Positions 33,755 to 50,530 of a stretch of DNA of 64,000 nucleotides are shown here, piece by piece. Position 1 is the stretch's first letter; every line of letters starts with the position of its first letter. The notes beneath the pieces were generated by a model that worked only from the letters and a program-made list of their open reading frames with translations, ran no database searches and had not been told where the DNA came from. A program made the position numbers and the translations under genes. The DNA lies in NCBI RefSeq assembly GCF_000143965.1, contig NC_014365.1:585501-649500 (forward strand). Reading direction: 5' to 3'. The DNA is from Desulfarculus baarsii DSM 2075 (GTDB lineage Bacteria; Desulfobacterota; Desulfarculia; Desulfarculales; Desulfarculaceae).

Positions 33755-34561
33755 TTATTTCATGTCCACGGCTTTGACCCAGATCACCGCGTCCTGGGAG
33801 TTTTCCTTGCCCTCGAACTTGTCGTCGGGGCCCACGCCCAGGGCGGCGAAGCCCCACCAGCCGGCCTTGGGGATGCCGAAGGTGAAGACGCCGTTTTCAT
33901 CGGCCTTGATGGTCATGGTGACAAAGGCGTCCTGGGGCGCGGTGGCCAGGGCCTCTTTCTGGAACTCGTTTTTGCCGGGCACGGGCGGATGGTTGAGGTA
34001 TTCAACCTCGACCTCGGCGAAGGGCACGGGCTTGCCCTGTCCCTTGACCACGCCGCGGAAGACGTTGCCGGTCCACAGGGCGTAGGGCTTGTCCAGGGGC
34101 ACGATCTCGGCGGGCAGGCCCAGTTCGGCGTCCCAGTCGGTGGGCAGGCCACCGGCGTTGACGACGACCTTGGTGATCTGCTGGATGTAGGCGCCTTCGC
34201 TGGGCTCCAGGTAAGGGGCGGGGTTGACGACGAAGATCCAGTCGCCCATGCCGCGCATGTTATAGGTGGTCTCGAAGGCCTTGCCGGAGTTGGTCAGGCT
34301 GGTCCACTCGATGGGCTTGAGGGTGGCCAGCAGGTCGGTCTTTTTGCCTTTATGAACGGCGAAGAACTCCTTGGGCTGGCCCATGTCCATGGTGTGGCCG
34401 GCCTCGAAGGGGTGGGTGAAGACCAGCTTGAGGGGGATTTCGCCGCCTTTTTCCAGGGCCGCCTCGGGGGTGTAGATCATCTGGAAGTGGGCCAGGGCCG
34501 GCAGGCCGCTGCACAACACGGCCATCAGGGCCAGGGCCGTCAGGCCAAGCAATTTTTTCAC
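33755..34561 (-). CDS. DUF4198 periplasmic metal-uptake-associated protein
   Basis: 268 residues. Signal peptide, cleaved after LPALA, leaving an N-terminal His (HFQMIYTPE), characteristic of DUF4198/NikK-type proteins, where the mature amino-terminal His can bind metal. Two immunoglobulin-like beta domains follow (~30-160, ~165-265: 'NVFRGVVKGQGKPVPFAEVE', 'NGVFTFGIPKAGWWGFAALG'). Family members accompany Ni/Co or iron importers. GTG at 34561 with GGAGGAC upstream. It is the last gene of the feoA-feoB operon, so ferrous iron delivery to FeoB is the likely role (inference). Confidence 0.85.
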   Translation of the reverse strand: MKKLLGLTALALMAVLCSGLPALAHFQMIYTPEAALEKGGEIPLKLVFTHPFEAGHTMDMGQPKEFFAVHKGKKTDLLATLKPIEWTSLTNSGKAFETTYNMRGMGDWIFVVNPAPYLEPSEGAYIQQITKVVVNAGGLPTDWDAELGLPAEIVPLDKPYALWTGNVFRGVVKGQGKPVPFAEVEVEYLNHPPVPGKNEFQKEALATAPQDAFVTMTIKADENGVFTFGIPKAGWWGFAALGVGPDDKFEGKENSQDAVIWVKAVDMK

Positions 34562-34634
34562 GACTGTCCTCCGTTTTTTGGTGTGCGACCGCGCGCCGGC
34601 CGGGCCGGCCCGCCTTGGGGGTCGAGCCAAGCAT

Positions 34635-34660
34635 GCCCGCCGACCGCGCGGCCGGCGGGC
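34635..34660. repeat. Intercistronic hairpin in feo operon
   Basis: GCCCGCCG and CGGCGGGC flank a 10-base loop between the 105-residue protein gene and the DUF4198 gene. Without a T-run, it may set differential stability of the downstream message. Confidence 0.45.
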
Positions 34661-34670
34661 GTGGTTTTGC

Positions 34671-34988
34671 CTATTCGACGATGTCCTTGCCGTTGATGAC
34701 GATGGAGTGGCCCTCGCCGGCGTCGAAGACGACGGTGTAGTCGCCATCGGGCTTTTTGAAGGTGAACTCGTTGCTGTCGTTGATGGCCCCGGTGATCAGT
34801 TCCTTGCCGCTGGCGTCCTTGACGCGCATGGTCACGCCGGCGGCCGAGGAGCCGTCGCTGAAGCCGCCCTCGCAGGTCACGGTGCCGTCACCGTTCTGGT
34901 AGCAGGTGCACAGGGGCGTGTGGGCCAGGGCCACGCTGGCCAGGCTGACGATCGCCGCCACGACGAAAAGGGTCAAAGCGCGTTTCAT
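34671..34988 (-). CDS. Small secreted Cys-containing protein of the feo operon
   Basis: 105 residues. Signal peptide ends at VALA; the mature protein starts 'HTPLCTCYQNGDGTVTCEGG', again with an amino-terminal His, followed by C-T-C and a third Cys. The remainder is a small beta-sandwich (carboxypeptidase-regulatory-like: 'VTMRVKDASGKELITGAIND', 'GDYTVVFDAGEGHSIVI'). The exposed His and Cys cluster could bind a metal. The ATG overlaps the feoB stop (ATGA), so translation is coupled to FeoB. NikL-like proteins in nickel systems are a possible parallel. Function unproven. Confidence 0.8.
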   Translation of the reverse strand: MKRALTLFVVAAIVSLASVALAHTPLCTCYQNGDGTVTCEGGFSDGSSAAGVTMRVKDASGKELITGAINDSNEFTFKKPDGDYTVVFDAGEGHSIVINGKDIVE

Positions 34989-37456
34989 TGAACAACCTCC
35001 TTGGTGCGTTTGGTTTCGGGCAAAAGCCCCATTATCAGCGCGAACACGCAGGCCAGGCCAAAATAGGCCCACATGGCCTGCCAGCCGCTGAGGCCCAGCG
35101 CGCCGCCGCCGGTGTAGATCAGGCTGGCGGCGAGGATGCCCAGCAGGCTGGGATAGGCGAAGGAGAACAACATCCAGCTGTAGCGCCTGGTGGCCACGCG
35201 CACCATGATGGTGGTGGCCAGGCAAGGCGGGAACAGGGCCATGAAGATCATCAGGGCGGTGGCGTTGAGGGGGGTGATGGGCTTGTCGGTGCCGGAGCCC
35301 AGCATGGCCGAGCCATCGTACTTGCCGTCGTTGCCGATGCCGTAGAGGGCCTTGAAGGTGGCGGTGGCGCTTTCGCGGGCGGCGAAAGAACTGAGCATGG
35401 CCACGTTGACCCGCCAGTCAAAGCCGGCCCATTGGGAGACGGGCTCCAGGAACTTGCCCATGCGGCCCAGGATGCTGCTGTTGATGCGCGCCTGTTGCAT
35501 CTGCCGCCAGAGGCCGTCGCGCTGCTGGCGCAGCTTGTTGAAGGCCTTGTAGGTCTTGGCGCGGCGATCCTTGACGGCCTCGAAAAAGACCGGATTCATG
35601 GCCTGATAGCGCTCGTCGACGGCCTTGGAGGAGACGGCGTCGCCGGCGGCGGCGGCCTTGTCGGCGCGATAGGCCTCGCGGAAGGAGAACAGGCTCATCA
35701 ACTCGGCCTCGCCAGGCAGGGCCGCGGCCAGGGGCGTGCCGGCGATGGCCTTGGCGAAGGCGGCCTTGGCCGCCACGCCCTGGGCCTCGAACTCGGCCTG
35801 AATCTGGGCCGGGGCGCCGGGGAACTGCAACAGGGCCCAGATGACCACGGCCACGGCGGCGACGATGGTCAAGACCTTGCGGATGTAGGTCCAGATGCGC
35901 TCGAAGGCCCGGGTCAGGACGCTGCGCAGGGTGGGCAGGTGATAGGTGGGCAGCTCCATGATGAAGGGCGCGGTCTCGCGGCCCTTGAGCACGGTCATGG
36001 TCAGGATGCGGGCGATGGGCAGGGCCATCACCAGGGTGATGGTCGAGATGAAAAACATGGCCCCGGCCTTGTGCTCGGGAAAAAACGCCTCCACGAGCAT
36101 GATGTAAAAGGCCGTCTTGGCCAGGCAGTTCATTAGGGGCACGGTGAGGATGGTGGCCAGGCGGGCCCGCTCGTCGGGCACGGCCTGGCAGGCCATGACG
36201 CCGGGCACGGCGCAGCCGCCGACGTAGATGCCGCCCAGGATGAAGGGCAGGGTGGAGTTGCCGTGCAGGCCGAAGCGCCGGAAGATGCGGTCGAGCATGA
36301 AGGCCATGCGCGGCATGTAGCCCACATCCTCGAGGATGGCGATGAGCGAAAACAAAATGAAAAACTGCGGCAAATAAACCAACAGCGCGCTGACGCTGGT
36401 CATGAACCAACTGGCCAGCGAACTGATCAGGGGCTCTTCCATGAAGCCGGCCACCGGCAAAAAGCTCTCCAGCCAGCCTTGGCCCCGGCTCAGCCACGGC
36501 GTGACCATGGCCGCCAACTGGCCGCCCTGGTTGACGGCCAGCTCGAAGAGCAAATAAAACACCCCGCACATGATCAACGGCCCGGCCACGCGGTGGCAGA
36601 GCAGGCGGTCGGCCATGTCGGTGAAGCTGCGGCCACGCTGATTTTTGTGGTGGATCACCGCCCGGCCGATCTCCTCGGCGGTCTCATGTCGGCGGAAGGC
36701 GATGTGCCGGAAGGTGGGCAGGCCGTGCTCCTGCTGAAAGCGTTGGCGTTCGGCCTCCAGGCTTTTCTGCAACTCGGGCCAGTCCTGGGCGGCGTGTTTG
36801 GCGGCCAGTTCCTGGGCCTTTTCGTCGCCCTCGAGCAGCTTGAGGGCCAACCAGCGGACCGGGCAGCGGCCGGCCAGGCCGGGTTGGGCGGCCAGCAACT
36901 CTTGCAGGCGCTCCAGGGCCGGCTCCAGGGGGCCGTAGTCGATGCGAAAGTTCGACACCGCGCCCTGGGCCTCGGCGATGGCCTGACGCAACTCCACGCG
37001 GCCCACGCCGCGCTTGCCGTCGCTGACCAGCACCCGCACGCCCAGGCGCCTGGCCAGTTCGTCCTGATCGATCTCTTGGCCGTGCTTGCGGGCCACGTCG
37101 ATCATGTTCAGGTCCAACAGCAGCGGCCGCTCCATCTCCAGCAACTGGAACGTCAGGTAGAGGTTGCGCCGCAGGTTGGCCGCGTCGACCACGTTGACCA
37201 CCAGGGTGGGCTGGTCGTGGAGGATAAAGTCGCGGGTGACTCGCTCCTCCATGGAGTAAGAGGTGATGCTGTAGGTGCCGGGCAGGTCGACCAGTTCGAT
37301 CTTGCGACCGCCCTCGCTGAAGTAACCCACCTTTTTTTCCACCGTCACGCCAGGGTAGTTGGCCACGAACTGACGCGCGCCGGTGAGCATGTTAAAGATG
37401 GTGGATTTGCCGGAGTTGGGCTGGCCGGCCAAGGCGGCCAGGATCTGATCGCTCAT
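34985..37456 (-). CDS. feoB: Ferrous iron transporter FeoB
   Basis: 823 residues. N-terminal G domain: G1 'GQPNSGKSTIFN' (~11-22), G3 'DLPGTYS', G4 NMID. Then the guanine-dissociation-inhibitor helices and a polytopic C-terminal membrane part with the two Gate motifs, for example 'LPFILGGIYVGGCAVPGVMA' with a conserved Cys. Residues ~560-650 hold an extra soluble insert (AA-rich, 'GEAELMSLFSFREAY'), longer than in E. coli. It imports Fe2+ across the inner membrane. Its start overlaps the feoA stop (4 bases). Confidence 0.97.
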   Translation of the reverse strand: MSDQILAALAGQPNSGKSTIFNMLTGARQFVANYPGVTVEKKVGYFSEGGRKIELVDLPGTYSITSYSMEERVTRDFILHDQPTLVVNVVDAANLRRNLYLTFQLLEMERPLLLDLNMIDVARKHGQEIDQDELARRLGVRVLVSDGKRGVGRVELRQAIAEAQGAVSNFRIDYGPLEPALERLQELLAAQPGLAGRCPVRWLALKLLEGDEKAQELAAKHAAQDWPELQKSLEAERQRFQQEHGLPTFRHIAFRRHETAEEIGRAVIHHKNQRGRSFTDMADRLLCHRVAGPLIMCGVFYLLFELAVNQGGQLAAMVTPWLSRGQGWLESFLPVAGFMEEPLISSLASWFMTSVSALLVYLPQFFILFSLIAILEDVGYMPRMAFMLDRIFRRFGLHGNSTLPFILGGIYVGGCAVPGVMACQAVPDERARLATILTVPLMNCLAKTAFYIMLVEAFFPEHKAGAMFFISTITLVMALPIARILTMTVLKGRETAPFIMELPTYHLPTLRSVLTRAFERIWTYIRKVLTIVAAVAVVIWALLQFPGAPAQIQAEFEAQGVAAKAAFAKAIAGTPLAAALPGEAELMSLFSFREAYRADKAAAAGDAVSSKAVDERYQAMNPVFFEAVKDRRAKTYKAFNKLRQQRDGLWRQMQQARINSSILGRMGKFLEPVSQWAGFDWRVNVAMLSSFAARESATATFKALYGIGNDGKYDGSAMLGSGTDKPITPLNATALMIFMALFPPCLATTIMVRVATRRYSWMLFSFAYPSLLGILAASLIYTGGGALGLSGWQAMWAYFGLACVFALIMGLLPETKRTKEVVQ

Positions 37457-37677
37457 AGCCGCTCCACCTCGACGAATCTGGCCTCGTTGTGCCGCAAGCT
37501 GATGAAATAGCCCAGCATCTGCACTTCGAGGGGATCGCGCAGCGGCGCGTTGCGGATCACCTTCAACTCGACCCCCGGATGAAAGCCCAGGTCCATCAAC
37601 CGCTGGCCCAGATCGCCCACGGCGGTCAGCCCCAGCACCTTCCCGGCCATGCCGGGCTGCAAGAAGTCCAAGGTCAT
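37453..37677 (-). CDS. feoA: FeoA domain protein
   Basis: 74 residues with the SH3-like FeoA fold: 'DLGQRLMDLGFHPGVELKVI' is the diagnostic segment and 'DPLEVQMLGYFISLRHNEA' the second half. It is a cytoplasmic accessory of FeoB. First gene of the minus-strand operon feoA-feoB-105aa-DUF4198; its ATG overlap with feoB indicates coupling. The strong promoter upstream has a palindrome just beyond the -35. Confidence 0.95.
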   Translation of the reverse strand: MTLDFLQPGMAGKVLGLTAVGDLGQRLMDLGFHPGVELKVIRNAPLRDPLEVQMLGYFISLRHNEARFVEVERL

Positions 37678-37754
37678 TTGGTCATCCCCAGGTGGCGCGT
37701 TCTTGTTTGAAAAGAGGTCGGAGGGCGGCCGACGGTTGGCCGCCGCTGGGCCGA

Positions 37755-37783
37755 AGTATAGCGGCGGCCATGTTGGAGGTCAA
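37755..37783 (-). promoter_or_regulatory. Promoter of the feo operon
   Basis: Minus strand TTGACC, 17 bases, TATACT: five of six in both hexamers with ideal spacing, ~78 bases before the feoA start. Followed upstream by the palindrome at 37791-37806. Confidence 0.75.
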
Positions 37784-37790
37784 ACAATTT

Positions 37791-37806
37791 ATTAGAGCGC
37801 TCTAAT
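37791..37806. promoter_or_regulatory. Perfect 16-bp palindrome, candidate metal-regulator operator
   Basis: ATTAGAGCGCTCTAAT is fully self-complementary and lies 7 bases upstream of the feo -35, in the shared region between feoA and the divergent P-type ATPase operon. It does not match the classic Fur box closely; a DtxR-like or other dimeric regulator is possible. Coordinated control of both operons is inferred from position only. Confidence 0.6.
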
Positions 37807-37845
37807 CTGAAAAGCCGCGACGAAACTTCGGTCAACATGGCGAAA

Positions 37846-37873
37846 TTGCGTGAATATCTATAATCTATATTAT
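37846..37873 (+). promoter_or_regulatory. Candidate promoter of the P-type ATPase operon
   Basis: TTGCGT, 16 bases, TATTAT, in an AT-rich stretch that is unusual in this GC-rich window. It would give a leader of ~150 bases before the ATG at 38027. Weaker than the feo promoter. Confidence 0.4.
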
Positions 37874-38026
37874 TAATCATGCCTTATTTTGCTGATTTTT
37901 TGTTTTACGCATCAAATAATCTTCGGTAATATTCAAGGCCAGCGCGGCCCGCCAGCGCGCCGAACCGAACATCACTTTCGCCGCCGGTGGCCAGGCCGCT
38001 CGGCGTTGCCCGTGGATATCGAGGCC

Positions 38027-40288
38027 ATGGCTCCAATCCAAATCAAGCACAGCCTGCCCGGCCGCCTGCGCCTGCACGCGCGGGCCTTGCGCCGCCGCCC
38101 CCAAGCCTGCCGGCTGGCGGTGGAGTTTTTGCAAAGCATCGACGGCGTGTTATGGGTCCGCTGCAATCCGGCCATTGGCGGCCTGGTGCTGGCCTTTCGG
38201 CCGGCCGAGCTGACGCCCGAGCGCATCATCCAGGCCCTGGGCGGCCTCTGGGGCCTGAACGCCCCGGCCCGTTGCCGGCCCGCGAAGCCGCCGGCCGGTC
38301 AAGCCCCGGCCTGCCCGGCTTGCCAGAGCGACTCCGCCGACCTGGAGCAGGCCGACATCTCCACGCCACGTCGCAGATTTTTGAGCATCGGCGCGGTGTT
38401 GGCTGTCACGGCCCTGCGTTCGCGCCTGCTGGGCGCGGTCGTGGCCCAGGGCCTGTTCAGCCCGCTGGGCCTGATCGCCGCGGCCTTTGCCCTGCCCCTG
38501 GCCGCCAAGGGCCTGCGCGAGCTGCTCAAAGGCCGACCCGGCCTGGACAGCCTGCTGGGCGGGGCCTGCCTGGCCGCGGCGCTCTCGGGCCAGGCCATGG
38601 CCGCGCTGGAGATTCTGTTCATCGACAGCGGGGCCGAATGGCTGCGGGCCTGGGTCACCCAGCGTTCGCGGCGGGCCATCGCCGAGATTCTGGAGATCAC
38701 CAGTCATCACACCTTCATGATCGTCGACGGCGTGGAGGTGGAGGTGGCGGTGGAGGCCGTGCAACCCGGCGACGTGGTGGTGGTCCACGGCGGCGAGAAA
38801 ATTCCCGTCGACGGCGTGGTCGTCGAGGGTCACGCCCTGCTGGACGAATCTTCCATCAACGGCCGGGCCGAACTGGCCGACCGTAGCGCCGGCGATCAAG
38901 TCTTCGCCGGGACCATGGCGCGCCAGGGCGTGGTCAAGATTCGCGCCCAGCGCGTGGGCGATCAAACCTATCTGGCGCGCATCCTGGCCCTGGTGGAGAG
39001 CTCGCTGCAAAACCGCGCCCCCGTCGAGCAGGTCGCCGACCGCCTGGGCCGGGCCACCATGCGCCTGGGCCTGACCGCCACGGCGCTGACGCTTTTGCTC
39101 ACCGGCAGTTTCTGGCGGGCCTTTTCGGTGCTTCTGGTCATGGCCTGCCCCTGCGCCACGGTGCTGGCCGCCTCCAGCGCCCTGAGCATGGCCATCAACA
39201 ACGCCGCCCGCCGCCGCGTGTTGATCAAGGGCGGCCGCTACCTGGAAGAACTGAGCCAGACCCGGGTCATCTGCTTCGACAAGACCGGCACCCTCACCGA
39301 CACTCAGCCGATTCTGCGCGAGATATTCAGCTATTGCGAGCTGGACGACGACCAGATCGTCGAGCTGGCCCACGCCGCCGAGTTGCACCAGCACCATCCC
39401 ATCGCCGGGGCCATCCAGCGCGAGGCCGCCCGCCGTGGCCTGCGCCGCCGCGAACACGCCGTGTGCCAATATCACCTGGGCCGGGGCGTCGAGGCCAAGG
39501 TGGCCGGCCAGGATATCCTGGTGGGCAACCACAAGCTCATGGAGCAATGCGGCGTGGACGTGGAGCCGGCTCGGCGGGACGCCCTGCACATGACCGATCG
39601 CGGTCGCACGGTGCTTTATCTGGCCCGCGACGGCCATCTGGCCGCCCTGCTGGCCATCAGCAACCGCACCAGGCCCGAGGCCCCGGCCATGCTGGCCGGC
39701 CTGCGGCGGCTGGGCTTCGAGCGCATCGCCATGATCACCGGCGACGAACTGTGCACCGCACGCGGCCTGGCCGACGAACTGGGCATGGACGTGTGCTGCT
39801 ACAGCGTCATGCCCGAGGAAAAGGCCGAACTGGTGCGGGCCGAACGCCAGCGCGGCGGCAAGGTGGTCATGGTCGGCGACGGCATCAACGACGCCCTGGC
39901 CCTGGCCGAGGCCGACGTGGGCCTGGCCATGGGCGCGGGCGGCTCGGAGCTGGCCATCGAGGCCGCCGACATCGCCATGGTCGACGACAACCTGGCCAGC
40001 GTGGTCTTTGTCTGCGCCCTCAGCCGTCAGACCATGCGCGTCATCGGCCAGAACTTCTGGATCGCCACCGGCTCCAACATCGGCGGGTTGATCCTGGGCG
40101 CGCTGGGCCTGCTTTCGCCGGTGGCCGCCGGGATGTTGCACATGGCCCACACCGCCGGCGTCCTGGCCAACTCGGCCCGGCTGCTGCGCTTTGCCCCACC
40201 AGCCCTGGCGACGCCGGAGCAGCCGGGGCCGGAGCCGGTCGTCGCCCCCAGCGCGGCCCCGGCCACCGATAACGAACTGGCGGCCTGA
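38027..40288 (+). CDS. P1B-type metal ATPase with Cys-less HMA domain and altered TGE motif
   Basis: 753 residues. N-terminal HMA-like domain (~3-75) with H-S-L-P-G-R-L-R-L instead of the CxxC metal site; a C-P-A-C knuckle follows at ~96-99. The membrane part has CPC (C374, C376) in 'LLVMACPCATVLAAS'. The phosphorylation site DKTGT (D418), N-domain HHP, TGD and GDGIND are present. The actuator loop, normally TGES, reads NGRA at ~278-281, and the GDGxNDxPAL block reads GDGINDALAL. Loss of the TGE glutamate should block dephosphorylation, so normal transport is doubtful. First gene of the seven- to eight-gene cluster to 45147. Start by first ATG matching the HMA domain; its ribosome site is weak. 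Confidence 0.88.
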   Translation: MAPIQIKHSLPGRLRLHARALRRRPQACRLAVEFLQSIDGVLWVRCNPAIGGLVLAFRPAELTPERIIQALGGLWGLNAPARCRPAKPPAGQAPACPACQSDSADLEQADISTPRRRFLSIGAVLAVTALRSRLLGAVVAQGLFSPLGLIAAAFALPLAAKGLRELLKGRPGLDSLLGGACLAAALSGQAMAALEILFIDSGAEWLRAWVTQRSRRAIAEILEITSHHTFMIVDGVEVEVAVEAVQPGDVVVVHGGEKIPVDGVVVEGHALLDESSINGRAELADRSAGDQVFAGTMARQGVVKIRAQRVGDQTYLARILALVESSLQNRAPVEQVADRLGRATMRLGLTATALTLLLTGSFWRAFSVLLVMACPCATVLAASSALSMAINNAARRRVLIKGGRYLEELSQTRVICFDKTGTLTDTQPILREIFSYCELDDDQIVELAHAAELHQHHPIAGAIQREAARRGLRRREHAVCQYHLGRGVEAKVAGQDILVGNHKLMEQCGVDVEPARRDALHMTDRGRTVLYLARDGHLAALLAISNRTRPEAPAMLAGLRRLGFERIAMITGDELCTARGLADELGMDVCCYSVMPEEKAELVRAERQRGGKVVMVGDGINDALALAEADVGLAMGAGGSELAIEAADIAMVDDNLASVVFVCALSRQTMRVIGQNFWIATGSNIGGLILGALGLLSPVAAGMLHMAHTAGVLANSARLLRFAPPALATPEQPGPEPVVAPSAAPATDNELAA

Positions 40289-40323
40289 ATCAAAGGCAAT
40301 CAGCCCTTGGCTGGAGACGACCA

Positions 40324-40683
40324 ATGACCTCGCTGATCGACGAACTGCTCTATCTGCGCCGCTACCTGATCGTGGCCCATCACCTGCCCGGCCGCATCCG
40401 CATCCGTCTTTCGCCGGCGGTGCTTTCCGAGCCCAGGGCCAAGACCCTGGCCGCCAGCCAGGGCCTGCGCGGGGCCTTGGGCGCCCTGCGCGGCGTGCGT
40501 TCGGTGCGGGCCAACGCCAAGGCCCTCTCCACCACCATCGAATACGAGACCGCCGTTGTCTCGGCCAGCCAACTGCACGAGTTGTTCACCAGCCGCGACC
40601 CGGCCAGGGTCCGCGCGCTGATGGAAGGCATATTGCAAAACGTGGGATTATCCTCAACCGCAACGGAAGGAGTCGCGCCATGA
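40324..40683 (+). CDS. Small HMA-like domain protein without metal cysteines
   Basis: 119 residues. 'YLIVAHHLPGRIRIRLSPAV' matches the HMA-like region of the two ATPases in this cluster (H-x-L-P-G-R-x-R), followed by 'GALRGVRSVRANAKALSTTI', a ferredoxin-like beta-alpha-beta pattern. No CxxC, so it is not a classical metallochaperone. In ferrosome clusters FezC also carries a heavy-metal-associated domain. RBS GGAG. Its stop overlaps the next ATG (ATGA). A soluble partner for one ATPase is the simplest idea. Confidence 0.8.
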   Translation: MTSLIDELLYLRRYLIVAHHLPGRIRIRLSPAVLSEPRAKTLAASQGLRGALGALRGVRSVRANAKALSTTIEYETAVVSASQLHELFTSRDPARVRALMEGILQNVGLSSTATEGVAP

Positions 40684-41315
40684 GCGAGACGAGCCAACAG
40701 GTTCAGATGGAGCCGCCCCGGCCGCCGGCCGGCCAGGAATGCGCCGACGAGGCGTGCGGCGGCGAGCAGGGCGGCCAGAAAAACGCCGCCGGCCCGGCCG
40801 GGCCCATGCCCGGGTATCCGGCCATGGGCGGCTACCCGGGGCCTCATCCCGGCTGGTGGGCCCCGCCCTATGGCTATTATCCCGGCCCCTACGGCCCGCC
40901 CATGGGCCAGGGTTACGCGCCGGCCATGCCGGCCATGGGTTACCAAGGCCCGGCCCAGGCCCCGCCGCCGCCCCAGGCCGAGGCCCAGCACGGCAAATCC
41001 GGCGGCCATGGCGGCTCGGAAGGCTGCTCGTGCCACGAGCAGGCCGGGGCCGGGGCCATGGAGCAAAACCAGATGGGCAAGATGTTCGGCCTGATGGGCG
41101 ACATCGTCAGCGGCAAGGTCAACGCCTCCACCGTGACCAGCCTTTTGGGCGGCTGCTCGGATCAATTCTGGAAAGGGGCCCTGGTCGGCGCGGGCCTGGC
41201 CTTTTTGCTGACCAACCCCACCGTGCGTCAGGGCCTGACCGGCCTGTGGGGCGGCCTGTTCGGCGGGGCCAAGGCCGAGGATGAGCCTTGCGCGGCCCCG
41301 GCCGGGGAGGAGTAA
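40680..41315 (+). CDS. Low-complexity Pro/Gly/Tyr-rich protein with hydrophobic module
   Basis: 211 residues. Residues ~1-40 are acidic and hold two cysteines (EC, AC). Residues ~42-105 are a Pro/Gly/Tyr/Met-rich disordered stretch ('GYPGPHPGWWAPPYGYYPGP'). A His/Gly/Cys patch (~108-125, GCSCHEQ) follows, then an amphipathic helix and a hydrophobic module 'WKGALVGAGLAFLLTNPTVR' (~173-192) with a GLWGGLFGG tail. The module recurs in the 91-residue protein of the same operon. This looks like a membrane-associated scaffold or assembly protein; no family assigned. Confidence 0.75.
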   Translation: MSETSQQVQMEPPRPPAGQECADEACGGEQGGQKNAAGPAGPMPGYPAMGGYPGPHPGWWAPPYGYYPGPYGPPMGQGYAPAMPAMGYQGPAQAPPPPQAEAQHGKSGGHGGSEGCSCHEQAGAGAMEQNQMGKMFGLMGDIVSGKVNASTVTSLLGGCSDQFWKGALVGAGLAFLLTNPTVRQGLTGLWGGLFGGAKAEDEPCAAPAGEE

Positions 41316-41318
41316 ACC

Positions 41319-41759
41319 ATGAGCGCGCATGTCAAGCACCTGGCCTCGGCCAGCGGCGCGGCGGCCAGCAGCGCGGGTTATCGCGGGCTGTGGGCCCTGG
41401 GCGGCCTGGGCATGGTCATCGGCGCGGCCGTGGCCGTGGCCAAGAACATCCGCCTGGTCAAGGAAGGCAAGATGCAAAGCGACCAGGCCGTGGGCGAGAC
41501 GCTCAAGGAGTCGTTGGGCACGGGCCTGACCACGGCGGCGGCCGGGGCGGCGGCCGGCGTGCTGGGCCTTTCGGGCGCGCTGGGCCTGGTGGGCGTGGCC
41601 GCCCTGGGCGTGGGCGTCAAATACCTGTGGGATTCGGCCCTGACCCCGCCGGCCGCCGCGCCGGCCAAGCCGGCGGCCAAAGCGTCGGCCAAGGCCGAAA
41701 CCAAACCCAAGGCCAAGGCCAAAGCCGTCAAGGCCCCGGCCACCGCGCGGGAGGAATAA
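41319..41759 (+). CDS. Glycine-zipper membrane protein with Ala/Lys tail
   Basis: 146 residues. Two hydrophobic Gly/Ala-rich segments: ~23-42 ('LWALGGLGMVIGAAVAVAKN') and ~72-105 ('LTTAAAGAAAGVLGLSGALG' continuing LVGVAALGVGVKYLW), dense in GxxxG packing motifs. A 38-residue tail of Ala, Lys and Pro follows, histone-H1-like and strongly basic. Such glycine zippers are typical of proteins that pack in curved membranes, including magnetosome and ferrosome proteins. RBS GGGGAGGAG. Its job is inferred from cluster context. Confidence 0.75.
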   Translation: MSAHVKHLASASGAAASSAGYRGLWALGGLGMVIGAAVAVAKNIRLVKEGKMQSDQAVGETLKESLGTGLTTAAAGAAAGVLGLSGALGLVGVAALGVGVKYLWDSALTPPAAAPAKPAAKASAKAETKPKAKAKAVKAPATAREE

Positions 41760-41763
41760 AGCC

Positions 41764-42039
41764 ATGCACGATCAGCGCAATCACCTGGCCCAAACGCAGA
41801 CCCAGGCCCCGCCGGCCGACGGCGGTTGGCTATCCTTCAACGACCCTTGCTATCTGCGGGGGCTGTTGATCGGCGCCGGCGTGGCCCTGGTGTTGGGCAA
41901 CCCCGCCGTGCAAAAGGCCGTGGTGCGCGGGGCCATGAAGCTCTGGGCCGGGCTGCAATACAGCATCGAAGAGGTCAAGGAGCAGATCGAGGACGTCAAG
42001 GCCGAGATGGCCGTGGCCAAGCAGGGCGAACAGGAATAA
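41764..42039 (+). CDS. Small membrane protein with the NPxV hydrophobic module
   Basis: 91 residues. 'CYLRGLLIGAGVALVLGNPA' (~29-48) then VQKAVVRG parallels the module in the 211-residue protein (W-K-G-A-L-V-G-A-G-x-A-x-L-L-T-N-P-T-V). One hydrophobic helix, then a charged amphipathic helix 'SIEEVKEQIEDVKAEMAVAK' (~67-86). YtxH-like in shape. The gene is 4 bases after the previous stop, RBS GGAGG. Candidate organelle-membrane protein. Confidence 0.75.
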   Translation: MHDQRNHLAQTQTQAPPADGGWLSFNDPCYLRGLLIGAGVALVLGNPAVQKAVVRGAMKLWAGLQYSIEEVKEQIEDVKAEMAVAKQGEQE

Positions 42040-42045
42040 CCGGCC

Positions 42046-42076
42046 GGGCGGCCCGCCTCCAGCGGGTGGGCCGCCC
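42046..42076. repeat. Hairpin inside the P-type ATPase operon
   Basis: GGGCGGCCC and GGGCCGCCC are exact inverted repeats separated by 13 bases, between the 91-residue and 65-residue protein genes. No T-run. Possibly an RNA-stability or partial-termination element. Confidence 0.5.
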
Positions 42077-42100
42077 GCGCGCCTTGGGAAGAATCGTCAC

Positions 42101-42298
42101 ATGGGCCGACAGAACAACGCATTGGCGCGCAAGCGCTCCCTGGCCAAACTGGGCATGAGCCTCTCGCTGGGCGCATTGGTGGTCACCGCCTTCGCCGGCG
42201 GCAAACGGGCCAAAAACTGGCATATCCTGGCCGGCGGGGCCCTGGTGGGTTTCAGCGCCTGGCACCACGCCCTCTACGGCAAGCCGGGCCGGAGCTAG
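42101..42298 (+). CDS. 65-residue two-helix membrane protein
   Basis: 65 residues. After a basic N-terminus (MGRQNNALARKRS) come two hydrophobic stretches, ~17-33 ('GMSLSLGALVVTAFAGG') and ~41-56 ('HILAGGALVGFSAWHH'), joined by KRAKN. The ending 'HHALYGKPGRS' contains a His pair. Gly-rich helices resemble its operon mates. It ends 3 bases before the second ATPase. No family recognised. Confidence 0.68.
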   Translation: MGRQNNALARKRSLAKLGMSLSLGALVVTAFAGGKRAKNWHILAGGALVGFSAWHHALYGKPGRS

Positions 42299-42301
42299 TC
42301 C

Positions 42302-44428
42302 GTGCCCAGCGCCAAGAACCTCGGCCGTGGGCCCAGCGTGGTCCACGAAGCCAACGGCCGCATCCGCTTGCGCGGCCGCCTGTTCGCCGATCCGGCCCTG
42401 GATCACGCCTACGTGGAGGCCATGATCATGGCCCTGCCCGGCGTGATCGAGGCCCGGCTCAACGCCGGGGCGGCCTGCCTGGTGGCGCGCCACGACGGCC
42501 GGCCCGGCGTGCGCGAGGCCATCCTGGCGGCGCTGGGCGATCTGCCCGATGAGGCCTTTCTGCCCGGTCGCCGGCGCAAGCGCGAGGGCTTGGACAAGGC
42601 GGCGGCCCTGGGCCTTTTGGCCCTTGGCGCCAAACGTCTGCCCCGGCCCCTGGGCGGGTTGCTTTCGTGGCTGGCCGCCGCGCCGGTGATCGCCGGCGGG
42701 CTGGAGACGTTGATCAACCGGGGGCTCAAGGTCGAGGTGCTCGACGCCGCGGCCGTAAGCGCCCTGTTGCTGCGCGGCGACTACCGCGCCGCCGGGGCCA
42801 TCGTGGCCCTTTTGGCCCTGGGCCGCCACCTGGAGCAGACCAGCGAGGAAAAATCCAGCGCCCTGCTCAAGAGCCTGCTGGCCGTGGGCGACGAAGACGT
42901 CTCGGTCGAGCGCGACGGGGCCGAAATCCGCCAGCCCGCCGCCAAGCTGGCCATCGGCGACATCGTCGTCTGCGGCCCCGGCGATAAGATCGTCGTCGAC
43001 GGCCAGGTGACGTGGGGCCAGGCCGAGCTCAACCAAAGCTCCATCACCGGCGAGGCCCGGCCCGTGGCCGTGGAGGTCGGCGACCGGGTGATCAGCGGCG
43101 CGACGGTGCAGGATGGCAAGATCAAGATCCGCGCCCAACAAGTGGGCCGCCACACGGCCATGGCCCGGGTCGGCAGCTTCATCGAGACGGCCGTGCGTCA
43201 TCAGTCCGAGCCCGAAAAACGTTCGGCCCGCCTGGCCGACCGCCTCACGCCCGTCAGCCTGGGCCTGGCTGGCGGCCTGCTGCTGCTCACCGGCGACACG
43301 CGCCGCGCCGTATCGGTGCTGACGGTGGATTTCGGCTGCGCGCTCAAGCTGGCCGCGCCGCTGGCGGTCAAAACGGCCATGTACAACGCCGGCCGCCGGG
43401 GCGTGCTGATCAAGGGCGCGCGGGCCCTGGAGGCCCTTTCGCGGGTGGATGCGGTGGTTTTTGACAAAACAGGCACCATCACCCACGGCGATCTGGAGGT
43501 CACCGACGTCGTGCCCCTGGACGGCATGAGCGCCGAGGAGCTTCTGGCCCTGGCCGCCGGGGCCGAGGAGCACTACAGCCATCCGGTGGGCCGGGCCGTG
43601 GTGCGGGCGGCCCGGCGGCGGGGCTTGCCCCAGCCGGCTCTGAGCCAGGTCGACTTCATCGTGGCCCACGGCGTGAGCGCCTACGTGGCCGATCAGCGGG
43701 TGCTGGTGGGCAGCCTGCATTTTCTGGCCGAAGACGAGGGCGTGGACTGCTCGACCGCCGAGGGCCTTTGCGCCAGCCTGCGCGACCAGGGCAAGTCCAT
43801 CCTCTACGTGGGCCACGAAAACCACCTGGAAGGCGTCATCGCCTTGCGCGACCGCCTGCGGCCCGAGGCCGGGGCCGTCTTGGCCGGGCTGCGGGCGGCG
43901 GGCGTCGAGGAACTGGTGGTGCTCACCGGCGATCACCGCCAGACCGCCCAGGCCCTGGCCCGCGACCTGCCCCAGCTCGACGCCGTGCGCTGGGAACTGC
44001 GCCCCGAGGACAAAGCGGCCATCGTGGCCGAGTTGCAGGCCAGGGGCCGCGTGGTGGCCTTTGTCGGCGACGGCGTCAACGACGCGCCGGCCCTGGTCAC
44101 CGCCGACGTGGGCGTATGCATGCCCGCCGGGGCCGAGTTGGCCCGCGACGCGGCCCAGGTGGTCCTGCTGCAAGACGACCTCTGGGGCCTGCTGAGCGCC
44201 CGCCAACTGGCCGCCCGCTTCCAGGCCACGGTTGGTCAGAGCTTTTTCGCGGCCATCGGCCTAAACTGCGCCATCATGCTGGCCGCGGCCGCCGGCCGGC
44301 TTTCGCCCCTGGGCGCGGCGCTTTTGCACAACCTCAGCACCATCGGCATCCTGGGCCACGCCGCCGCCGCCAACCTGCGGCCGGCCGAGACCGGGCCTCG
44401 GGCGCTGCCGCAGGAGCGAGTCTCTTGA
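42302..44428 (+). CDS. P1B-type metal ATPase with GCA in place of CPx, ferrosome FezB-like candidate
   Basis: 708 residues. N-terminal Cys-less HMA-like region (~12-80: 'HEANGRIRLRGRLFADPALD'). TGE (249-251) in 'SSITGEARPV', DKTGT (D388), SHPV in the N-domain, TGD and GDGVNDAPAL are all canonical, so it should be catalytically competent. The metal-site helix lacks CPC; it reads 'VLTVDFGCALKLAAPLA' with a single Cys347. ATPases of the P1B-6 group in ferrosome operons are also non-CPx; assignment to that group is inferred, not shown. GTG at 42302 with GGAGCTAG. Candidate pump loading metal into an intracellular compartment. Confidence 0.85.
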   Translation: MPSAKNLGRGPSVVHEANGRIRLRGRLFADPALDHAYVEAMIMALPGVIEARLNAGAACLVARHDGRPGVREAILAALGDLPDEAFLPGRRRKREGLDKAAALGLLALGAKRLPRPLGGLLSWLAAAPVIAGGLETLINRGLKVEVLDAAAVSALLLRGDYRAAGAIVALLALGRHLEQTSEEKSSALLKSLLAVGDEDVSVERDGAEIRQPAAKLAIGDIVVCGPGDKIVVDGQVTWGQAELNQSSITGEARPVAVEVGDRVISGATVQDGKIKIRAQQVGRHTAMARVGSFIETAVRHQSEPEKRSARLADRLTPVSLGLAGGLLLLTGDTRRAVSVLTVDFGCALKLAAPLAVKTAMYNAGRRGVLIKGARALEALSRVDAVVFDKTGTITHGDLEVTDVVPLDGMSAEELLALAAGAEEHYSHPVGRAVVRAARRRGLPQPALSQVDFIVAHGVSAYVADQRVLVGSLHFLAEDEGVDCSTAEGLCASLRDQGKSILYVGHENHLEGVIALRDRLRPEAGAVLAGLRAAGVEELVVLTGDHRQTAQALARDLPQLDAVRWELRPEDKAAIVAELQARGRVVAFVGDGVNDAPALVTADVGVCMPAGAELARDAAQVVLLQDDLWGLLSARQLAARFQATVGQSFFAAIGLNCAIMLAAAAGRLSPLGAALLHNLSTIGILGHAAAANLRPAETGPRALPQERVS

Positions 44429-45147
44429 GCTATCTTTCCCTGGACCGGGCCCCGGTCTCCACGCCGCTCAAGCTGGTGGGGGCCACCGATCGCGGCCTGG
44501 CCGAACGCCTGGCCCGCCTGGGCCTGGAGCCCGGCGCGCGGCTGACCCGCCTGCCCGACGAGGTGCGCCTGCAACCGGCCCGCGTGGCCGGCCCGCGCGG
44601 CGAGGCCGTGCTCAGCGCCAACATGGCCGGCTCGCTGCTGGTGCACCTGGACGACGGCCGCAAGCTGCCGCTTCTGGACCTGGCCCCCGGCGAGGAGGGC
44701 CACGTGGAGGGGCTCACCGTCGGCGGCCGCCTGGCCAGGGCCTTCGAGGTGCTGGGCCTGATGGAAAACGATCGCCTGCGCCTGCTGCGCCGCCTGCCGC
44801 CCATGGAGTACGTCGTGCTGTTGGAGGGCCGCCGCCGGGCGCGTCTGTCCGAGGGCATGGCCGCCAAGGTCTGGGGCCAGGTGGCCGGGCGCAAGCAGCA
44901 ACTGGCCACGGCCCAGTCGGGTCATCCCTTCACGGTGCTGGAGTTTTTGGGCGGGCCCAACTTCGCCGCGGCCATGGCCGCCCTGGGCCTGGCGGTGGGC
45001 TCATCTCTGGAGCTGGAGACCGTGGAGCCGGCCCAGAGCGTGGGCCAGAAAGCCGCCGCCGCCGTGGCCCTGGCCACCGCCGGGGGGCTGCGCCTCTATC
45101 TCGACCAAAAATCGGCCCGGGCCGTTCTGGTCCAACCAGCGGGATAA
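44425..45147 (+). CDS. Multi-FeoA-domain protein
   Basis: 240 residues, cytoplasmic. I see two full FeoA-like SH3 units: ~13-75 ('GLAERLARLGLEPGARLTRL' with 'GEAVLSANMAGSLLVHL') and ~80-155 ('LARAFEVLGLMENDRLRLLR' with 'RARLSEGMAAKVWGQVAG'), plus a third partial one at ~172-225 ('AAAMAALGLAVGSSLELETV'). The L-x-x-L-G-hydrophobic-x-x-G/N signature recurs each time. The TTG start overlaps the ATPase stop (TTGA) and CAGGAG lies upstream. FeoA units normally touch FeoB; a multi-unit form could link the ATPase cluster to FeoB or act as an iron-dependent scaffold. Confidence 0.8.
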   Translation: MSYLSLDRAPVSTPLKLVGATDRGLAERLARLGLEPGARLTRLPDEVRLQPARVAGPRGEAVLSANMAGSLLVHLDDGRKLPLLDLAPGEEGHVEGLTVGGRLARAFEVLGLMENDRLRLLRRLPPMEYVVLLEGRRRARLSEGMAAKVWGQVAGRKQQLATAQSGHPFTVLEFLGGPNFAAAMAALGLAVGSSLELETVEPAQSVGQKAAAAVALATAGGLRLYLDQKSARAVLVQPAG

Positions 45148-48769: not shown

Positions 48770-50530
48770 GGCTTGGCAAAGATAGTCGTAGAATGATTAT
48801 TTGGAAGACATACGTCTTAGCAATCCAAGTTGTTTTCTTGTCATCCAAACACAATTGCCAGGAAAATATCCTTTATCTTTATCTATTCTTGCGAAAACCA
48901 TATTTGATTCAGCAGGCTCACCAACGTCGCGATAAAAGCACATGAAATCACTTGACCATGATTCAAATAAAGAGACGCCATGGTCATAGGATTTTGAATT
49001 ACTATTCAATACACAATGCTTAATATAGCTCCATGCCTTATAACATTTTCCCTTCACCAAAGAATTGCCAGTAGTCGCACGTTTTTTTACATTTATCCTG
49101 TTTTTGGACACTCTTCTTTTTGCGGCGGCGAAAGATATATTTTGTTTTTCGGCAACATATTTTGCAGCAGATTTTGCACTTTTAAACTTCTTTCCGTCAA
49201 GGGTAACGGTTTTTGTATTAGAGCCACCACTTACCCCGCCACGAGAAATATTATACCCATATGGGATGCGTGTGTTTAACATATTGATCCAAAATTTCTC
49301 CTTCTCTTCAAGGTCATGCTTTGTGGTCCCGTGGTCAATAATCGCGATAGAAAATGCACTTGCGCCGGAATTTCTTATTGCGGCGTGCAAAGAATGCTTA
49401 TTTTTTATGTTGCCTAAATTCGCTTGTGAAATATGATCTTCCCAACGTCTTTCAATCGTTTGCGTCGTAAGACCGACATATTGTTTTTGTGAAGACGAAT
49501 GCACTATGAGATAGATTATCCCGTTAGTATAGCCAGGGTTAGGTATGTATCTGAAGGCGTCATCTGGGCTCAGACCGGATTTGATGAGTCGGCGAATTGT
49601 CGTGCTACTAGCAGGCGGATCATACTCGCGTATGGCAGCTGCCAGATTTGAAAACTTTTGACCATACACAATTATCTCTTCGGTTGATCTTGTACCGACC
49701 AACTTGCCCTTATCGAATATATGACTATCGTCAAGTCCTGCCTGTCTTCTTTTAAGGGCTCTCCAATAGTTCACAGATAGTTTGGCGCACTTTTCTTTAA
49801 AAGACCCTGCAAATTTTAGTTTTTTTGCACAATGTGGGCATGATGAACCTCGCAAATGGTTGCTTTGTGTTTGCCAGAATTCACCATGTGTTGGACACAC
49901 TATTTTACCCTTTTTTGTGTTGTCGAGCGGAAAGAACTCATCATATCGATATTTAGCCCCGTGTACTAACTTCGCACGTTCCTCGAATCTCTGAATCATT
50001 TCGCTGTTGCTTTTAATTTTACTGCCTCTACACGTTCGGTCAAAAAACTTTGAAGCAATGCATTCTGGACAACCAGTATGTCCTAATATATGATTCCTAG
50101 GATTTTGAAAGAAAAATCTATTATGTGTTTTGCAGAAGATTTTAATTTTTTTATGAGTTAAGGGCATTGGCGGGACAAACGAATAATCATAGTGTTGATC
50201 AAAATACTGTGCAGCCCTTTCTTTAAATACAACCAATGTGATCTTTTGCGATTCATGATAGCACTGCCTGCAACCAACTCCTTTAGCGTGGTGGTTAGGC
50301 GTTATGCTGAATTTTCCATGCTCGGGGCAAATTACAATAACTTTCGTAGAACAGTTTACATATACCACTTCCGAGTAATCATATTTATTGCCGTGGGCTT
50401 TTTTGAAGTCAAAGATGATTTCATCTAGCGTCTTTTTGCGTGGCATTACACCCCCGCTGGCAAAAACAACTCTGCTAAATTGAGTAATGCTACCTGGACA
50501 AAATATCGATAATCTGGCCAACGCCAACGG
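48770..50530. mobile_element. AT-rich island with nuclease gene
   Basis: A sharp fall in G+C between about 48.77 and 50.53 kb, inside a window otherwise about 66% G+C. It contains only the composite nuclease gene. I see no integrase, terminal inverted repeats or tRNA at the borders. Likely a homing endonuclease-type or phage-derived insertion; borders are visual estimates. Confidence 0.65.
48797..50446 (-). CDS. Composite nuclease: zinc-ribbon repeats, GIY-YIG and HNH-like domain
   Basis: 549 residues. Three zinc-ribbon repeats (~35-75, ~105-140, ~185-225) each with a C-P/K-x-H-x-x-F ... N-H ... G-x-x-C-x-x-C pattern, for example 'CPEHGKFSITPNHHAKGVGC'. A GIY-YIG endonuclease domain follows (~310-400: 'GIIYLIVHSSSQKQYVGLTT', with R/E later), then NUMOD-like DNA-binding repeats ('VTLDGKKFKSAKSAAKYVAE') and a C-terminal phage HNH-like unit (~475-549). 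The coding DNA is AT-rich, unlike all neighbours, pointing to recent transfer, probably phage or homing element. ATG at 50446 with GGGGGTG upstream. Confidence 0.88.
   Translation of the reverse strand: MPRKKTLDEIIFDFKKAHGNKYDYSEVVYVNCSTKVIVICPEHGKFSITPNHHAKGVGCRQCYHESQKITLVVFKERAAQYFDQHYDYSFVPPMPLTHKKIKIFCKTHNRFFFQNPRNHILGHTGCPECIASKFFDRTCRGSKIKSNSEMIQRFEERAKLVHGAKYRYDEFFPLDNTKKGKIVCPTHGEFWQTQSNHLRGSSCPHCAKKLKFAGSFKEKCAKLSVNYWRALKRRQAGLDDSHIFDKGKLVGTRSTEEIIVYGQKFSNLAAAIREYDPPASSTTIRRLIKSGLSPDDAFRYIPNPGYTNGIIYLIVHSSSQKQYVGLTTQTIERRWEDHISQANLGNIKNKHSLHAAIRNSGASAFSIAIIDHGTTKHDLEEKEKFWINMLNTRIPYGYNISRGGVSGGSNTKTVTLDGKKFKSAKSAAKYVAEKQNISFAAAKRRVSKNRINVKKRATTGNSLVKGKCYKAWSYIKHCVLNSNSKSYDHGVSLFESWSSDFMCFYRDVGEPAESNMVFARIDKDKGYFPGNCVWMTRKQLGLLRRMSSK

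Follow-up and report, generated by a model that had tools for sequence, protein, structure and literature searches.

An enlarged gene cluster of probable ferrosome type, with a MamC-like gene, beside feoAB in Desulfarculus baarsii

What do the eight tightly packed genes that face away from feoA and feoB in Desulfarculus baarsii DSM 2075 build together: a set of metal exporters, or an iron-storing compartment of the ferrosome kind? They lie in a stretch of 64,000 nucleotides (hereafter the window; contig NC_014365.1, positions 585,501 to 649,500, forward strand) of a genome that consists of one contig of 3,655,731 bases; unless a relative is named, all coordinates are window positions. The proteins of this 64-kilobase window were compared with the Pfam and NCBIfam profiles. 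The eight reading frames are all open, lie on the + strand (38027–45147) and either overlap their neighbours or stand at most about 60 bases from them; feoA (74 residues, 37453–37677) and feoB (823 residues, 34985–37456), both on the − strand, diverge from them. An initial annotation of this DNA had described such a divergent cluster, with two P1B-type ATPases, an HMA-domain protein without cysteine and a multi-FeoA protein. The description holds: both ATPases are matched by Pfam and NCBIfam profiles (with an N-terminal HMA_2 domain on the first), the 119-residue HMA protein has no cysteine, three FeoA stretches are found in the last protein and the same gene order is found in relatives. The cluster is probably a ferrosome (fez-type) operon, in an enlarged, MamC-containing layout beside feoAB. 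As far as the sequences allow us to judge, its assignment to the ferrosome kind is backed by a pump and a cytochrome, and not by a FezA.

The pump in question is the second ATPase, ATP2 (42302–44428, + strand, 708 residues). We built a tree of 69 P-type ATPases with Shimodaira–Hasegawa-like approximate likelihood-ratio test (SH-aLRT) support, including Escherichia coli CopA and ZntA and the other two ATPases of D. baarsii. ATP2 falls in a 38-member clade (SH-aLRT 100) together with FezB of Desulfovibrio magneticus and the cluster pumps of Firmicutes (which adjoin DUF6110 proteins), Shewanella and Vibrio; CopA, ZntA and the other two D. baarsii ATPases are outside. Within this clade, the five D. 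magneticus and Firmicutes pumps split from a 33-member group (support 99) that comprises ATP2 and the Proteobacteria-type pumps. The fourth transmembrane (TM) helix of ATP2 reads VDFGCALKL (VDFGCALKLAAP), with VDFGCA where the relatives have VD[YF]SCA or close variants, and the pattern [VI]D[YF]-x-C is present in TM4 of all 38 members of the clade. TM6 reads LHNLSTIGIL, and the asparagine of its HN pair is found in nearly all of the FezB-clade members listed; a conserved HN in TM6 is a feature of P1B6 pumps (PMC9374683). On the strength of its motifs and its place in the tree, ATP2 is assigned to the P1B-6/FezB-type pumps. An ordinary copper or zinc exporter (P1B-1/P1B-2) was rejected for ATP2, as it groups with FezB/P1B-6 and with neither CopA nor ZntA.

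The first ATPase, ATP1 (38027–40288, + strand, 753 residues), belongs to a second clade (support 100, 18 sequences) with MACPCATVL-type TM4 and LHIxHT-type TM6 motifs. Its own TM4 is MACPCATVL, with a CPC, and its TM6 is LHMAHTAGVLANS; a single group (support 99) unites ATP1, FezB and two further pumps. A P1B-6 assignment stands for ATP2 and not for ATP1, with its CPC and its place in a sister clade. We describe ATP1 as a 'FezB-sister' metal pump, for which a role in release or export is a guess.

The cytochrome was recognized by comparison with D. magneticus. One of the genomes (G568), which we take to be D. magneticus RS-1, holds a single FezB-type gene, in a three-gene locus (L165) that is presumably its fez locus. 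This locus encodes an 86-residue protein that is weakly DUF6110-like (E = 0.049), the ATPase and a 146-residue protein in which an HMA_2 domain (E = 4e-10) is joined to a two-helix tail. The latter fits the published account of D. magneticus FezC, which is homologous to DUF4405 and binds heme b (PMC10979944). The 65-residue protein encoded directly before ATP2 (S65; 42101–42298, + strand) resembles a two-helix mini-cytochrome and aligns with the FezC C-terminal tail (hhalign 95.9%, E = 6e-9), and its His41 and His55 are both invariant in nine aligned sequences. S65 is, by this comparison, a homologue of the cytochrome end of FezC and is predicted to bind heme. The Cys-free protein of 119 residues (40324–40683, + strand), whose HMA_2 match is weak (20.9 bits, where the cut-off is 30), weakly resembles FezC in its N-terminal half, here encoded by a gene of its own. 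Because S65 aligns with the FezC tail with both histidines invariant, we read FezC as present in the form of two genes, HMA-like and 65-residue. The initial annotation had equated FezC with an HMA protein, which is right for the HMA_2 part but leaves out the DUF4405-like mini-cytochrome of D. magneticus FezC and the separation of the two parts here; S65 itself had passed as a low-complexity or Gly-rich protein. In two other deltaproteobacteria (L078, 8479–8961; L080, 8512–8964), HMA_2 plus two-helix FezC-like proteins lie directly upstream of FezB-type pumps, the fused form of the parts that are split in D. baarsii. A 295-residue DUF4405 protein is also encoded in a same-family relative (L011, 2749–3636, + strand), near the cluster and a gene for a TonB-dependent receptor, and might add a second cytochrome to iron handling.

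S65 had been counted among 'four small Gly-rich or low-complexity proteins', a label that lumps unlike proteins together. One of them is GlyP (40680–41315, + strand, 211 residues), which is rich in glycine and proline, contains Cys/His motifs and ends in a glycine-rich hydrophobic TM segment. The other two are a DUF5132-like protein (D5132; 41764–42039, + strand, 91 residues; one hydrophobic segment and a charged helix, match below the cut-off) and a homologue of MamC that had been overlooked (41319–41759, + strand, 146 residues; two hydrophobic segments and a loop).

This MamC-like protein matches the NCBIfam MamC model with E = 1.1e-12 and 48.1 bits, short of the 100 bits set as the equivalog cut-off; a MamC proper reaches 133 bits. 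Relatives from other clusters, Shewanella and Photobacterium among them, match at E = 1e-5 to 1e-14. Reciprocally, a profile of the MamC-like cluster proteins gives 61.6 bits for an above-cut-off MamC (L209), and none of 1000 shuffles exceeds 7.5 bits. The match is specific, since of 385 genomes in the class to which Roseospira marina belongs the model matched only one, at R. marina's own FezB-type locus. The homology spans the two-TM/loop region. MamC has two TM helices and a lumenal loop in which Asp66 and Glu70 affect magnetite size (PMC6206293); the MamC-like protein has glutamate at both aligned positions, the residue numbers being mapped in this analysis. A MamC-like gene is carried by 49 of the 103 FezB-type loci sampled, in each case together with a GlyP/DUF5132-like gene. 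In a tree of the family, true MamC falls among Desulfobacterota sequences, with weak support and one long-branched sequence; we do not rely on this tree, and it settles no direction of transfer. No literature linking MamC to ferrosomes was found in a search that did not extend to the founding ferrosome papers. A search with the MreB_Mbl family for a magnetosome actin returned several actin-like matches in D. baarsii and D. magneticus, from which MamK was not separated. D. baarsii encodes a third MreB-like protein (G000:C1:2427654-2428607, 196 bits), beside two strong MreB copies.

GlyP and D5132 have a glycine-rich TM segment in common, and DUF5132-like proteins stand in the place of FezA, as in Shewanella-type operons. 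DUF6110 proteins are related to PacL and pair with P1B6 pumps (PMC9374683); PacL proteins, for their part, use a glycine motif in their TM segment to bring P1B6-like ATPases into clusters (PMC9374683, PMC13043812). No match to DUF1490 (PacL) was found among the window proteins. Because DUF6110 is likewise unmatched there, we can only infer a scaffold role, with D5132 as the candidate to replace FezA. The last gene encodes the FeoA-triplet protein (44425–45147, + strand, 240 residues), whose TTG start overlaps the ATP2 stop codon and which may tie iron import to storage.

Is this set of genes more than a chance neighbourhood? All eight homologues are found by blastp, in the same order, in two genomes of the same family (L011, L013), and six of the eight in a third (L012), where the contig ends within the cluster. 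About 20 loci, spread over several Desulfobacterota families and one Deferribacterales bacterium, keep the order in full or almost in full; all eight components are found again in Desulfovibrionaceae and other families, and Solidesulfovibrio alcoholivorans and a Deferribacterales bacterium have the same layout. A profile of S65 gave 14 matches in 395 genomes of the phylum, and most of the loci read were full, partial or contig-truncated clusters from families other than that of D. baarsii. One match (L042) was rejected as due to chance. A profile of the FeoA triplet was positive in 38 of 199 genomes of one family (f45); all seven loci read (L168–L174) contain ATP1, the HMA gene and a DUF5132-like gene as well as ATP2 and the FeoA triplet; in two of them (L170 and L172), the MamC-like gene has changed place. 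The triplet is stably retained in the Desulfobacterota clusters. Given the order kept within the family and the agreeing loci of other families, the cluster is far beyond chance. Synteny with clusters of fez type, whose absence the initial annotation would have counted against itself, is found in FezB-type loci: the order HMA–GlyP–MamC–DUF5132–FezB is common to Shewanella, Ferrimonas, Photobacterium, Kluyvera and Pragia. feoB lies within 9 kilobases in 25 of the 103 sampled loci, and in L034, L036 and L053 the cluster is next to feoAB, which in L034 is preceded by a gene for a DtxR–FeoA fusion. Some genomes have two FezB-type pumps or two clusters, one of them partly divergent (L045, 487–16594; L171, 3481–14399; G614).

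From the homologies, conserved order, family placement and motifs described above, we infer vesicle formation, iron as the metal and every functional step of the following scheme. FeoB would import Fe(II) into the cytosol, and ATP2 would pump it across the membrane of a vesicle derived from the cytoplasmic membrane. S65, as a small FezC-like b-type cytochrome, would dimerize and set the balance of Fe(II) and Fe(III) by transmembrane electron transfer. PacL/FezA proteins are thought to cluster pumps and shape the membrane; GlyP and D5132, with their single glycine-rich TM segments, might do the same. The acidic loop of the MamC-like protein, placed in the lumen, would control granule size or the nucleation of the mineral. 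The Cys-free HMA protein could be an adaptor or a weak metal relay, and ATP1 could serve metal release, or export of excess iron or of another metal. The FeoA-triplet protein, finally, might dock on FeoB and/or on the pumps and so couple import to storage.

Several observations weigh against a ferrosome. No DUF6110-type FezA is matched among the window proteins, and the HMA protein aligns only weakly by hhalign with the N-terminus of D. magneticus FezC. The region between feoA and ATP1 (37678–38026) carries a perfect 14-base palindrome, TTAGAGCGCTCTAA (37792–37805), as a possible operator, yet it is not a genome-wide site: with one exact copy in the genome, and two-mismatch copies below the control count, it was rejected as a regulon site. 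Regulation of fez in Clostridioides difficile is by Fur and iron-responsive, and no convincing Fur box was found in the window (best 19-mer with seven mismatches, shuffle P = 0.16). In several relatives, the first gene is preceded by Fur-box-like 19-mers with four to six mismatches (shuffle P ≤ 0.01). In the 2022 work of Grant and colleagues, the Shewanella-type operon reportedly makes ferrosomes in S. putrefaciens. As that operon has the same core and no DUF6110 protein, the lack of a FezA is no exclusion. Metal specificity, too, cannot be read from sequence with certainty, and P1B6-like pumps such as CtpC can carry zinc (PMC9374683).

We may wonder, then, whether the same genes could work without an organelle, as an 'effluxosome' in which GxxxG-rich small proteins cluster the two pumps in the cytoplasmic membrane and export excess Fe(II) or other metals. 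The clustering of P1B6-like ATPases by PacL proteins (PMC9374683, PMC13043812), the glycine-rich TM segments of GlyP and D5132 and the presence of two pumps in one operon all agree with this. It is nevertheless unlikely: ATP2 groups with FezB proteins, simple efflux has no use for a FezC-like cytochrome or a MamC-like protein, and neither DUF1490 nor DUF6110 is matched in the window. A compartment on the ferrosome plan with changed specificity, for storage or detoxification of another divalent metal (Mn, Co, Ni or Zn), is a reading to which we give little credence. It would account for DFGCALKL in TM4 of ATP2, where relatives have DYSCALKL, and for the CPC of ATP1, and could draw on two DUF4198 genes that are possibly part of the same metal pathway, one for a periplasmic-type protein downstream of feoB (33755–34747, − strand) and one next to ATP1 in L011 (14568–15464, − strand); the divergent feoAB, the FeoA-triplet protein and the association with feoAB in relatives argue for iron. 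That the MamC-like gene is the trace of a magnetosome cluster, past or cryptic, reduced or transferred, is very improbable indeed. The profile match (E = 1.1e-12) invites the idea, but at 48 bits it is far from the cut-off of 100, the companions are FezB- and FezC-like and not Mam proteins, and many bacteria that are not known to be magnetotactic regularly have a MamC-like gene in their FezB-type clusters. The magnetosome remnant was rejected, as largely refuted by the gene content of the cluster.

A further proposal can be made, tentatively and with more doubt than confidence: MamC and the MamC-like cluster protein may belong to one family and serve the same function, with a loop in the lumen that directs mineral formation, so that magnetosomes borrowed this kit from a wider iron-storage organelle (or the reverse); in the Desulfobacterota version a second pump would be added, along with a FeoA triplet that may physically couple FeoB import to storage. 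The mineral-shaping kit of magnetosomes would then have been taken in part from a far commoner organelle, or the other way round. Ferrosomes were recognized only in 2022. The eight-gene layout, which may already be tabulated in the founding work, gives a defined parts list that includes a MamC homologue linking ferrosomes to magnetosomes, a two-gene FezC and a possible import–storage link protein; each part is directly testable in the single-contig genome of D. baarsii. Elsewhere in the window, a 576-residue GIY-YIG nuclease-like protein (48797–50527, − strand) has weak treble-clef zinc-finger matches.

How does the layout compare with known systems? With fezABC of D. magneticus RS-1 (L165), reportedly a ferrosome locus in the work of Grant and colleagues in 2022, it shares a FezB of the same clade, a FezC tail homologous to S65 and the HMA_2 module. 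The D. magneticus locus, however, consists of three genes: its FezA is DUF6110/PacL-like, its FezC is an HMA_2–cytochrome fusion, and next to the locus there is neither a MamC-like gene nor GlyP, nor a second ATPase, nor a FeoA triplet; the claim of a larger system with a second ATPase and a FeoA-triplet protein is thus borne out. The operons of Shewanella, Vibrio, Ferrimonas and Photobacterium (L076, L079, L084, L086), which we take to be of the 'six-gene fez operon' type, have the order HMA_2, Gly-rich TM, MamC-like, DUF5132/YtxH-like and FezB in common with D. baarsii. They lack the second ATPase and the FeoA triplet, and have a divergent second HMA_2 gene where D. baarsii has the separate 65-residue cytochrome. 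The PacL/CtpC effluxosome of Mycobacterium likewise joins a P1B6-like ATPase to small glycine-motif TM scaffold proteins, whereas D. baarsii is without DUF1490 and its metal-binding motif and has cytochrome-like and MamC-like proteins. MamC (Mms13) and its homologue here are clearly related, with two hydrophobic segments and a loop with an acidic pair at the Asp66/Glu70 positions, but the score is half of that required and the gene's neighbours are those of a FezB-type cluster and not mam genes. As for FeoA/FeoB transport, three FeoA domains are found in the last gene and feoAB lies divergently; the difference is that the FeoA-triplet protein is separate and fixed in a P1B-6 cluster.

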